Below, one piece after another: positions 24,701 through 33,700 of a stretch of 64,000 nucleotides of DNA. The notes below the pieces were generated by a model that was not told the DNA's origin, ran no database searches, and saw only the letters and a program-made list of their open reading frames with translations. The position numbers and the translations under genes are program-made. Source of the stretch: Sphaerolaimus hirsutus (lineage: Eukaryota; Nematoda; Chromadorea; Monhysterida; Sphaerolaimidae); assembly GCA_964036195.1 (NCBI GenBank), contig OZ038460.1, forward strand, positions 8,001,504 through 8,065,503, given 5' to 3'. Position 1 is the first letter of the stretch. Each line of letters opens with the position of its first letter.

Positions 24701-27700
24701 TAAAAAAAAGTGTAAGTGTAAAAAATTTTTTTAAGAAAGGGCTCTCACTGTTGAGCATTAGAAAACACCACTGTTTTCACCTTTAGATCAATTTATTTGT
24801 CATTTTCATGCATTAATTCACGTTTTATTACCTTTTATGAAACATTTAGTACTGTAACAAATACTGTAGTGGTATGAAGTTCCCTAACAATGGCACTTTT
24901 TCAGTGTGGATATTTTACTGATTAAGCAATGTTTAAATGCAAGAATGGACATGCAGCAAATGTCAATCCCAGTTGACTTTGTGTCCAGCTGGTGAATTTC
25001 CATTGATCTTGTCCTTTTTACAAAAGTATGTATGATGAAACTGTAGAATACCATGAGTATTGATCAAAGGTTGGTTATCAAAGGCTAGTTTGTACATTTG
25101 CCATATTTTCTACATTCAATGCATAACTGCATGTGTGCACTGTGCAGTTATTTTTTGTACAGGACCCTTTTTTATGCTTTCTCAAAAGCAAAAAACAGGG
25201 CCATCTGAAAGAAAAAAATACACTTTCTGTACCCAGGTATTTTGCTCAGGAAAGTGTAAAAAAAGTGTATGGGTATTTTATGAAAGTGTAAGTGTAAGTG
25301 TAAATATAAATACCCATTTACCCGGGTTTTTGGGGAAGCGACTGTCTATGCTGCCAAGTTAATTGAGTTCATGTTAAGCTAGGCAGTGCGTTGGCGAAGG
25401 TTTTTGGGTTTTCATAAGTTTATTTCCGAACCTCACGATGCTCAGTAATTCACAACTAAATACGACAAAACAATCGAATCTCAAACGCGCGCACTTCACA
25501 ACACAACAAATTCCCCCTATAACTGAAGGGGGTATCACTTTATCAGGGGGTTCACTTAATTTTCAGAAATTTCAGGAGTTTTTGGATTTTCCAAAGGAGT
25601 CTCCATTTCATCTTCACTACCCCCTGCAACCGACTCGGCAAAAACTTGTTCGACAGTTTTAGGAAATTTTTGAGTGGAGCACCTCGGCTCATCTTTTGGA
25701 ACTTTTCCGTGGAGGGGGTGATCCTCGTACTCATTCACGGCATCCTTATAGAATTCCAACTGAGACTCTAAAACGGCCTTATTTTTCTTCAAAGACAAAA
25801 TTTCAGACTTGGCGGCCAAAAGTTCAGGGGTTTCGGGGGTTTCGGGGGTTTCCTGCCCGTTAATCACACTTTTCAAAGACTTATGGCGGGCCTTCAGGCG
25901 GTCATACTTAGCGCGCAGGGTATCAAAAGCGTCCATGGCGGTGCGGTGATTGATTTTGTGCTCATTCGAACGGCCCTTCAATGCCAATTTTTCATCTTTC
26001 AACCTCGAAATGGTAACACTGCAGACCTCGAGTTGGTCGCGCAGACTTTGGATCTTCTGAAAATGAACGTAATGCTCTTTACGAACAAGAAACAACCCCT
26101 CATGGAGCGAACCCTGGACAATTTTCAAATATGTGAAAACTTCAAACACTTCAAAAACGGGGAAACCAGTAAAAACACATTTTCTCCCCAGGAAAAAGTA
26201 GCGACATTGAAATTAGCGACGGGAATTCCGATGGGATTCCGATGGGAATCGGAATTGGGCTTGAAAACCAACTTGAATGTTCGAAAATAAAAACTCCGGA
26301 AATGCCGTAATCAAGTCGAAAGTTGAAAAGAGAGAAGAAAACACCACAAACAGATTTATCATGACTGCTTTCGGATTTCAAATCGTAAAATTTCTTGGCA
26401 TAATCCACCGGGGCCTGGACCACTGGAAGCGGGTTGTTGCGTTGCACGAAAGGCGGGTAAGGCTGAGTCGGGTAACCCGGCGGGGAGTTGACGAAATGCG
26501 GGTTGACATAAAATGGCGTTGACGTAGGCATGGGCCGGCCAAGCGAATCACGGGCCAACGGATTTTGGTTGTTCATTGTCGCTTTTTCAACTTTTTATGT
26601 GAACAAAGATGGCGTGATGTATACGTGACGTGTTGTTTTCTTTTTTAAAAATGTGCATCAACACGAGGAAGTAGAAACGAAGGGAAGTGATCGTGTACCA
26701 GTAGACTATTTGTTAAATGGCAAAAACTCTTTCGAAACCTATTTAGAAATGGCAAAAACTCTTTCAAAACCTATTTAGGCTCCTGCAACTTCCATGCTGA
26801 CCGCTGCGCTACTGAAAAAGTGTCACCTTCGTGACCCTGTAATAACAGCGTAACTCCTGACACGCTAATGACCACATACGGACCACTGAATTTCGGAGTA
26901 TTTTTTTCAGATGACAACAAACGGACCATTACGCGATCTTCTGGTTAAAAAGTTGTAGAATGAGTTTGATCGAAATATTTTTTATATAAAGCACGGTTTT
27001 TGTCACTTTGTGTCTGTGCCAGAAGTCGGGCAGACTGTGGGTCGATTTTCCGCGCGGCGGAAAAGAACAGATTCCAATGGGGTAAATGCCCAAACACCAA
27101 ATAAAATGGGCAGCACCCCGTCATGCGATTCATGGCCATATTGCACCTCAACGTGGCCATGGGTAACACCTCCCACCATTTTTGGTGAGGGAACTCTCGA
27201 GTGCAAAACATCAACGCTTCCCTGAGCGAACGATTGGCATGCTCAACCATTCCGTTAGCTGCGGGGTTTTGTGGCAAAGTGGGGCTATGTGTGACACCAA
27301 AAGTTTCGCATAAATATCGCAACTCTGAATTAAGGAATTCTGTCCCTCTATCAGTAATTAAAACATGTGGGGCCCCACAAAACATGAAAACATGATTATA
27401 AATGGCGTTGGAAACAGTAACCGCTGTCAATGAGCGAATAGCGACGGTTATCATGTATCGAGTCAAAGCGTCAATAACGACCAAAATTTTTCGGGATGAC
27501 ACTTTATCAAAATACATGACATCAACATGCAAAACGTCAAACGGTTGGGAAGGAGTCATGACGTTGCCTAGGGGTGATGCATTTACTCTATGTGATTTGA
27601 CTGTCATACACTCAGAACATTGTTGGCAAAATTCCAAAATATCTTTTTTCATATCAGGCCACGCAAAATACTGACAGAGCAAATCCAAAGTTCGCGCCTG

Positions 27701-30700: not shown

Positions 30701-33700
30701 AATTCCGATTTTGATGAGAGTAAAGATCCATGTGCAGCATATGTTCACGAATTTCACCACAGGGTTTCGGAGTTATATAACAATGACCCCGGTATGTTCA
30801 CCAAATGGTCATCCAATTTCGTTCATGCACTGCCAATTATCTCTCAGGATTATGTGACGCCAGAATCGGACAATTTTTCTCGGACGTTTTCCAGCAGGAG
30901 CAAGCATATGATGACGAATGAAACTGTTGATTCGCGTGACTTCTTGCATGATTTATCTACTGATGATTGTCCGCCTCTGTGTGGTTCTTTATGTTCTAAA
31001 AGTAAAGGTGGTGAATTTGGTTTACTCACTTCGGATGATGGAATTTGTGCTCAAAGTATGGTGGGAGATAATCAACAATTATGCATAAATATTAAGGCTT
31101 CAAATGGCCCACTAGTTTACGCCAACATTGATATCGAGGGTGTCCCATGCCGAGTGCTTTTAGACAGCGGGTGCACCCGCTCATTAATGCCCTTGACACT
31201 TTTACAACAACTTTCGGTGCGCACAGGTGTGGACTATGTTGATCGAATGTCGCAGTCCAAAATCTGTCTGGACACAGTTAATGGTCAAACATCAGATGGA
31301 GAACTTTCCGAAATCAAATTACGTGTAGATCATGTTTCGCCTGTTGATAAAGTCCGTCGGAAGGCAATAACGACATTTCTAGTTAATCGAAGTCCCGGTG
31401 CACTCACAGAGATTCTCATGGGGACAGATGTTATGCCATTTTTGAAAATGACTTGGTTGATACCCATAGTTCTCGATCGATTTTGTGATGCGCCTATACC
31501 GGGCGAACCAGCTGATTTGGTGGGGAAGACTTTGAATCTCGAGAAGAATTTCAATGCAATTTACAGTGACATTTTGAAATCTACGAAATCCATTTTTGTG
31601 CCAGCCCATGGCGTAGTGTCTAGTTCATTTGCCGTTCCCTCCAAGCCACATGGACTTTCTGCCAGCGTTTGGCGAAATAGTTTCATTTTGTTTTCAAATA
31701 CAGACATGCAATTCAATGGCCTTTCAATGTATAACACCACTGTTTCAATGGAGAATTGCCAGAAGTTTTCCCTCACTTTATTCAATTCGAATCCATACCC
31801 TATCAATCTGCCTGCTGATGCACCTCTGGCTCACTATGAAGTATATCCTAAGCATATGATGTATTCACCAGGCGCCAATTTTTCCGCGATTTTAGTGTCC
31901 GACAGTTTGGGGACATGTTACCGCGCGGCACACAAAGAACAAAATGTGGGAGCGCCATGCGTTGCACTGCCTTCTCCACCCGTTACCGAGTCTGAAAATG
32001 AAAATGAGACACCGTTGTCGCCAGCTGAACGGGCAGCATACGTATGGGATAAATTGAAAGATGATTTACAAATTCCCTTGACGCCATCACAAAAAGAACA
32101 GTTTTTCCAGCTGATTTCTGAATATCATGATATTTTCAGTTGTGCGAATTACGACGTAGGCAAAACCCCTTTGATTTCGCATCAGATTGTGACCGACCCC
32201 ACTCAGCCACCAATTAAACAGGCAGCACGCTATGAAGCCAGGAATAAGAGGGCTTTCATCCACAAAACCATTCTATCCATGCTCAAAGAGGGAATCATTG
32301 AACCATCGAATGGGGCATGGGCATCCCCCATTACAATAGCACCGAAAGGAGAGTCGGATTTTAGGTTTTGTGTCGATTTTAAATTAGTAAATCTCATTAC
32401 CAAAATTGATTCGTACCCACTACCACGCATTGGGGAAATATTGTCAGAGTTTTCAGGACGCAAGATTTTCTCAGCTTTGGATATACGCCACGGTTATTAC
32501 AATGTCCCGCTGGCCGATGAAGACACGCGGGAGCGCACTTCATTTGTGTGTAGTTTGGGTCAGTTCCGATACACGAGAATGCCGTTCGGTACTGTGAATG
32601 CCGGCGCTTCTTTCCAGAGACTCATGTCCATATTACTGGCAGGTTTGAATGACGATCCCGCCAACCCGTGGATCAGGGCGTACATTGATGACATTCTGTG
32701 CAGTAGTTTCACTGTCGAGGAGCATTTTGTTCATTTACGCCGACTTTTTGGTAGGATGAGATGGGCCAATTTGAAAATCCAACCTGCCAAATGTAAATTT
32801 TTCGCATCAGAACTGAAATATTTGGGCCAGGCGCAAATATATTCGCATGCGCGAGGCCCTGGGTTCAATCCCCAGGTCGTCCACCACTTTTGGGGAAGCG
32901 ACTGTCTATGCTGCCAAGTTAATTGAGTTCATGTTAAGCTAGGCAGTGCGTTGGCGAAGGTTTTTGGGTTTTCATAAGTTTATTTCCGAACCTCACGATG
33001 CTCAGTAATTCACAACTAAATACGACAAAACAATCGAATCTCAAACGCGCGCACTTCACAACACAACACGGGTATTTCGGGTAAGTGTAAATACACTTTC
33101 GCAACTCTGTCTGTGCCCCCTTGCAGCTGCAGATGTGATTATAATGTAGGTACACTGCATGACTGCACACTGCCAAGTGGTGTTCACAGATAAAATATGC
33201 TTGGCGATGGCAGCTGGCTGACTCTTTACACAATTACAATACACACACTGCACATGCAGTTGCCAGCGCAGTCATAACATAATTGATGTGTCAACAAGTG
33301 TCTTTTATGTGTACGCACCACTCAGCGGTGTGCACTGTGCAGTCACACAGTGCCAATTGCATAATGACTGCAGCTGCATGAGGGGTACAGATTAGTAGCG
33401 GCTAGACTTAAATGAGTGCGGGTCAAGATGAGTCGTGGGTTCAGATGAGTAGCGAGCCTACGTCCTCCAGTAACCAAACAAACCTTGCAACGAAAGACTC
33501 TTGCTCGGTGTCTACGCTGGTGGCCATGGCGAAGGCGTGTGCGGTGCACAGGACGCGTCTGCCGGTGCCGCGCAGCACGCCCGCGTACTCGGTGCCGAAG
33601 GTGGACGTGAACGTCGAGTCGAACAGCATGTTGTTGCCGGCCAGGTTCGCTTCCGGCGGCAGCGCGCCCGTCGCCAGCATCACGTCGCGGAAGTTCATCT

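Follow-up and report, generated by a model that had tools for sequence, protein, structure and literature searches.

In a 64,000-nucleotide stretch of the genome of the nematode Sphaerolaimus hirsutus (assembly GCA_964036195.1, contig OZ038460.1, positions 8,001,504 to 8,065,503; hereafter the window, to whose first letter the positions below refer unless a locus is named), a single long terminal repeat (LTR) retrotransposon fills 25323-33073. Its own sense is the minus strand, and its gag-protease-reverse transcriptase (RT) block lies inverted between the two LTRs. The DNA of this element, here called the focal element, was probably mis-made during reverse transcription and then inserted as a single unit, as judged from its sequence. 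An earlier note on this DNA had weighed insertion of a rearranged genome against inversion after insertion; the former is favoured, since a tail copied from the primer tRNA ends at an inversion breakpoint, and since in a second inverted element, L099, the inverted segment starts at the end of the primer-binding site (PBS).

Structure of the focal element

Read in element sense, the order is LTR, one spacer base, PBS, 27 nucleotides (nt) of extra tRNA sequence and 12 nt of filler, followed by antisense RT-protease-gag and 17 nt of antisense leader, and then, again in sense, the end of RT, RNase H, integrase, an accessory gene, the polypurine tract (PPT) and the second LTR. The features are as follows (bp, base pairs; ORF, open reading frame).

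25323-25327, no strand: target-site duplication (TSD) CGGGT, left copy
25328-25508, minus: 3' LTR in element sense, 181 bp, TGTT...AAAA
25509-25518, minus: PPT AGGGGGAATT, adjoining the 3' LTR; similar-looking tracts occur in relatives
25556-26149, minus: accessory ORF, second block, with a weak, sub-cut-off match to the HAUS1 coiled coil
26151-26576, minus: accessory ORF, first block, which may be spliced to the second
26945-28720, minus: end of RT (SANGIS..), RNase H and integrase in their original orientation
28636-28644, plus: nine bases GGCGCAAAT, equal to part of the filler; a possible template patch
28713-28731, no strand: junction J1, an 8-bp hairpin from TCGGCGAA, which occurs in leader and pol alike
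28722-28738, plus: last 17 nt of the 5' leader, start of the inverted segment
28739-32829, plus: inverted gag-protease-RT, open from the ATG at 28739
32830-32841, no strand: 12-nt filler GGCGCAAATATA, junction J2
32842-32868, minus: 27-nt read-through of the primer tRNA-Ala(CGC), reaching base 32, which lies in the anticodon loop
32869-32886, minus: ordinary 18-nt PBS
32888-33068, minus: 5' LTR in element sense, 181 bp, 100% identical to the 3' LTR and in the same direction
33069-33073, no strand: TSD CGGGT, right copy

The head-to-head halves described in the earlier note are confirmed by Pfam, with RVT_1 on the plus-strand ORF and RT_RNaseH_2, RT_RNaseH, Integrase_H2C2 and rve on the minus-strand ORF; gag and protease were assigned through their position and alignment to relatives, not through Pfam. 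Likewise, CGGGT stands on each side, and the PPT lies on the strand of the integrase half, both as claimed. The LTRs are identical and point the same way, but measure 181 bp and not 178 bp. For the plus-strand half, given as 28739-32835, strand and content hold, while its end can be assigned only to 32829 (GGGCCA); the other half is indeed on the minus strand, but starts at 28720/28721 rather than 28712. The proposal that one pol was cut at a single point is accurate to within 7 nt, with 6-7 nt of the usual spacing missing. The plus-strand frame reads on across the junction to a stop at 32924-32926 within the LTR.

Elements of the Ty3/Gypsy type are defined by RT and RNase H lying upstream of integrase, collinear in one pol. 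The focal copy has the direct LTRs, the PBS after the 5' LTR, the PPT before the 3' LTR and the short TSD of this type, but its pol domains, though present, lie on opposite strands; it is best called a rearranged member of the Ty3/Gypsy-type group, whose other scored rows have the collinear order. Its intact LTR ends and TSD are those of an integrase-type insertion. PBS, PPT and LTRs are retained, and an LTR-driven RNA would hold gag-RT in antisense, so that this copy should not yield Gag or RT.

A tail of primer tRNA ends at the breakpoint

The earlier note had the PBS agreeing with the integrase half, and this holds for its orientation. It is not an ordinary PBS, however: 45 nt (32842-32886) match mature tRNA-Ala(CGC) exactly, including the CCA that the gene (L051 1454-1525) does not encode, and the match ends at the junction (base 32 was counted by hand in standard numbering). 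At the 5' ends of 20 collinear relatives we found no such tail in any: all 20 have an ordinary PBS (16-18 of 18 positions), after which 2-10 of the next 27 nt match the tRNA, and a leader with a CCCAG box precedes gag. Reverse transcription of the primer best accounts for a tRNA tail that ends in CCA and stands behind an LTR, and because primer tRNA copying belongs to reverse transcription, the inversion most likely arose at that stage. The CCCAG box itself stands 19-27 nt past the PBS in all 20 leaders (L031-L050).

At two further loci, L070 and L072, the whole tRNA was copied with A58 read as T, which could reflect misreading of a methylated base if methylation of this tRNA is assumed. Copies of tRNA-Ala with CCA and without an LTR match also occur, at L068 (C14:521467-524489, the same copy as L052), L070, L073, L074 and L075; A58 is read as T in the last four, and L068 is flanked on both sides by the direct repeat CCACCATGTTGGAT. 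Going by their sequence, these five look like mature-tRNA retrocopies made by another reverse transcriptase.

The inversion junctions

J1 reads TTCGCCGA-AGC-TCGGCGAA and, in the genome search that the earlier note had proposed, has a single occurrence in the 348-Mb assembly when one mismatch is allowed. The leader starts at 28722 and pol reaches 28720/28721, so that each of the two J1 breakpoints is 0-2 nt away from the 8-bp repeat TCGGCGAA (an after-the-fact estimate puts the chance at about 0.0002). At J2, RT ends at 32829, and the filler that follows has 9 nt in common with 28636-28644, about 80 nt (<100 nt) away from where pol is broken (for this neighbourhood the chance, again estimated after the fact, is about 0.005). 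Little of pol has been lost: the two query ends are separated by 87 nt in 32 of 46 same-strand pairs of relatives, and the focal element misses 6-7 of these. The spacing from CCCAG box to ATG in relatives is most often 16 nt (8/20; range 11-31, one without a value). Of its leader the focal element keeps 17 nt, beginning about where the box of relatives would end.

A second inverted element

L099 (C16:1724000-1733900, read on the minus strand; the element itself spans 1726969-1733363) has the order LTR, 18-nt PBS, an antisense stretch with some 41 residues of RNase H followed by RT, protease and gag, then a sense accessory gene and LTR. Its antisense RNase H begins at the base directly after the PBS. 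The LTRs are identical at 157 of 158 positions, the TSD is TCGTT, and the element contains an internal 2.44-kb tandem duplication (99.4%). The PBS end, GGGGA, overlaps the antisense RNase H by 4 nt if the Ile-Pro codons were ATCCC and otherwise by 1 nt; ATCCC is found in 16 of the 39 relatives read, including L002, the nearest by RT, and L110. A 4-nt GGGA microhomology at the PBS 3' end is therefore likely, although inferred, as the element's own codon is lost. Because the LTRs of the two inverted copies align poorly (77% over 71 nt only) and their breakpoints differ, we take them as independent events.

Census of primer-binding sites

An exact AG+PBS pattern gave 74 sites, all of which were read, 48 of them with just 30 nt upstream. 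Normal order was seen at 59 (58 with the CCCAG leader and sense gag, plus L123 with a variant leader and sense gag), and five sites have other leaders without a match (L114, L118, L125, L144, L153). tRNA tails stand at seven (the focal element, L070, L072, L079, L081, L084, L154), three of which are rearranged. The PBS leads into antisense pol at two sites, the focal element (RT) and L099 (RNase H/RT), and into sense pol at four: L072 and L081 (RNase H), L116 (RT) and L122 (integrase). In L116 and L122, no more than 1-2 bases separate sense pol from the 18-nt PBS; in L072, L081/L100 and L101 its distance from the tail end is at most about 20 nt, the first clear RNase H of L072 and L081 lying 10-20 nt past the tail. 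The tail of L154 is followed by a repeat of LTR end and PBS, and that of L070 has no LTR match. Two loci outside the pattern are L101, with a tail and then RNase H, and L071, with a tRNA copy of about 44 nt, part of the PBS, and a normal leader and gag.

L072 combines an LTR pair (169/171) with the TSD CTGAC and a 73% RNase H-integrase match. L100 (C4:27033000-27037958) and L101 (C14:25745600-25750568) are short elements with LTR pairs at 99% and 97%; both open with a tRNA tail and RNase H-integrase, neither gag nor RT being matched in the sequence covered, and possibly form a mobilised non-autonomous lineage. Since L072, L100 and L101 share near-equal PBS-to-RNase H spacing and can be aligned with one another, they are not counted as independent events. 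The 200 nt upstream of L116, L122 and L154 resemble one another by eye, as putative LTR ends, with no BLAST match to the LTRs of the focal group. A strict hot spot at the RT/RNase H boundary was considered and rejected: the focal element, L099, L072 and L081 break there, L116 (RT) and L122 (end of integrase) elsewhere.

Pol order across the genome

We scored 58 RT-half rows, from the best 56 of 2065 candidates (two rows are second pieces of one element), and 77 RNase H-integrase rows, the best 77 of 1825 candidates. Among these best-scored RT rows 57 of 58 are collinear and the focal element is the sole opposite one, a ratio that is no frequency, as the scored list did not include L099. A scored same-strand RNase H lies within 6 kb in 46 rows; for the 11 rows without a scored partner the sequence was fetched, and RNase H was found downstream on the same strand in 11/11.

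No second copy of the focal element was found in the assembly. Apart from the element itself, its LTR is matched best at 90% over 41 nt, and at 71-74% where the stretches are longer; for L099 the best is 78%. For the LTR of either inverted copy, then, the genome search gave no further long match beyond 78%, and among the scored RNase H-integrase matches amino-acid identity is 84% at most. Nor is there a sign that the focal halves had different parents, as their identities to 23 relatives rank alike (Spearman 0.67; 6 of 29 loci were dropped, RT being short or missing).

Proposed origin and alternatives

In two inverted copies and at four sense-pol sites, no more than about 20 nt separate the breakpoint from the strong-stop end, which points to an accident at second-strand transfer. 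The over-long strong-stop DNA would fail this transfer, we infer because its 3' tail mismatches the leader. Its end would then prime further synthesis on a sense template, either RNA or plus-strand DNA, close to where RT adjoins RNase H, and copying would run back to the leader before a switch to the minus strand, perhaps aided by the repeat TCGGCGAA. L099 and the copies with internal deletions would be explained by illegitimate transfer of a similar kind, its target being either the sense strand or minus-strand DNA. It is likely that second-strand transfer fails recurrently and leaves a scar; whether the middle piece of the focal element was re-copied or was flipped and joined is less certain.

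Several points weigh against this account. The tail of L071 precedes a normal order, so a tail alone does not tie the inversion to one event, and the tails of L079 and L084 lead into unmatched sequence with no recognised element part. ATCCC is absent from 23 of the 39 relatives, and the microhomology of L099 may thus be just 1 nt. The two pol breakpoints lie at most 7 nt apart, for which cutting and flipping is simpler than two template switches, and the J1 repeat makes a hairpin, not a simple priming match, leaving the switch unexplained. A candidate stop for leader copying, pairing of the CCCAG box with the freed tRNA T-stem, is predicted in just 4/20 leaders. The evidence throughout is assembly sequence.

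The strongest rival places the accident at the same stage but has the DNA joined rather than copied: the cDNA would have suffered two breaks prior to integration, one in the gap left behind the over-extended strong-stop and one where RT meets RNase H, with its middle piece then end-joined in reverse. The loss of just 6-7 nt of pol between the breakpoints, the 12-nt filler and the coincidence of the tail end with one breakpoint all suit it. We nevertheless regard it as rather unlikely, because the probable PBS 3'-end microhomology and 2.4-kb internal duplication of L099 suit copying better, and the copies joined to sense pol need no break.

Ordinary insertion followed by a chromosomal inversion between leader and RT is possible in principle, L071 having a tailed PBS before a normal leader. 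It is very improbable: one breakpoint falls together with the tail end (focal element) or with the 18-nt PBS end (L099), the identical LTRs allow little time, and inverted repeats of at least 20 nt are absent from 24800-33700. An assembly error is hard to credit even though the order is known from the assembly and not from reads: misassembly produces neither a filler nor a tRNA copy ending in CCA, none of the scored matches is near-identical and so open to confusion with this copy, and L099 is the same type of product. A natively ambisense family, raised in the earlier note and suggested by the ORFs on opposite strands, can practically be dismissed, given that no further LTR or junction copy was found, RT is split mid-domain, the remaining 57 scored RT rows are collinear and the two inverted copies differ in their breakpoints. 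It is the accident that recurs, not the element.

Returning to mis-made reverse transcription, a broader version may apply to the lineage, though we hold it only tentatively and at somewhat less than even chances: read-through of tRNA-Ala past A58 would be frequent, and LTR retroelements would often be rescued by non-canonical second-strand transfer, with strong-stop DNA priming on the sense strand (giving inverted copies) or on minus-strand DNA within pol (giving copies without gag-RT) and leaving a tRNA-tail scar. If so, the scar would let failed transfers be counted in any genome, and would connect tRNA methylation with retroelement structure. Internal inversions and deletions of proviruses are usually ascribed to template switching, with no visible cause; here the junction itself would mark the failed step, second-strand transfer after tRNA read-through, and several likely outcomes (tail with normal order, deletions, inversions) are present in one genome.

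Other features of the element and the window

In the 3' regions of relatives (L054-L067), the second accessory block is found in 14/14 tested and the first in 11/14, the two up to a few hundred nt apart. The insertion site, with its flanks joined (25318-25327 / 33069-33078), is the palindrome TACCCGGGTA. A GC-rich second Gypsy-like element occupies 44-6559, with a gag-like ORF without a Pfam match and another ORF holding RT and a shortened RNase H, in which no integrase domain was found. Large inverted repeats lie at 8902-10637, one of 141 nt at 88% and another of 65 nt at 82% whose loop measures 4 nt.

Comparison with known systems

Searches of the open-access literature, which leaves subscription papers largely outside, turned up neither a report of ambisense LTR retrotransposons nor one of inversions that begin at over-extended strong-stop DNA. 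LTR elements derived from tRNA, as far as the accessible text describes them, are a different phenomenon from the focal tail (PMC10886601). The complex LTR elements of Triticeae (Sabot and Schulman, 2007; PMC1950507) resemble the focal element, in the parts available, in aberrant template switching and unit insertion with TSDs, but fuse two parents around an internal LTR; 'inver', 'tRNA' and 'strong-stop' were looked for in the main text of that paper and not found. Among proviruses of human immunodeficiency virus type 1 (HIV-1), the available portion of one report gives two with genomic inversions, each making up 1.3%, the second of which also has a deletion (PMC9278108). As in the focal element, an internal block is inverted there, but that portion ties no tRNA tail or strong-stop end to the inversion, whereas the focal breakpoint is that end.

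Another parallel is the HIV-1 plus-strand strong-stop, which, according to the accessible text of PMC13191261, normally halts at methylated A58 of tRNA-Lys3. When methylation is missing copying continues past A58, and a minor product stops at base 37, in the anticodon loop, and is said to be no active template. Both the tRNA and the element differ from ours. There, moreover, the over-extended strong-stop is a cDNA intermediate, whereas here tRNA copies, to base 32 or whole, are integrated in the genome and joined to pol in either direction.

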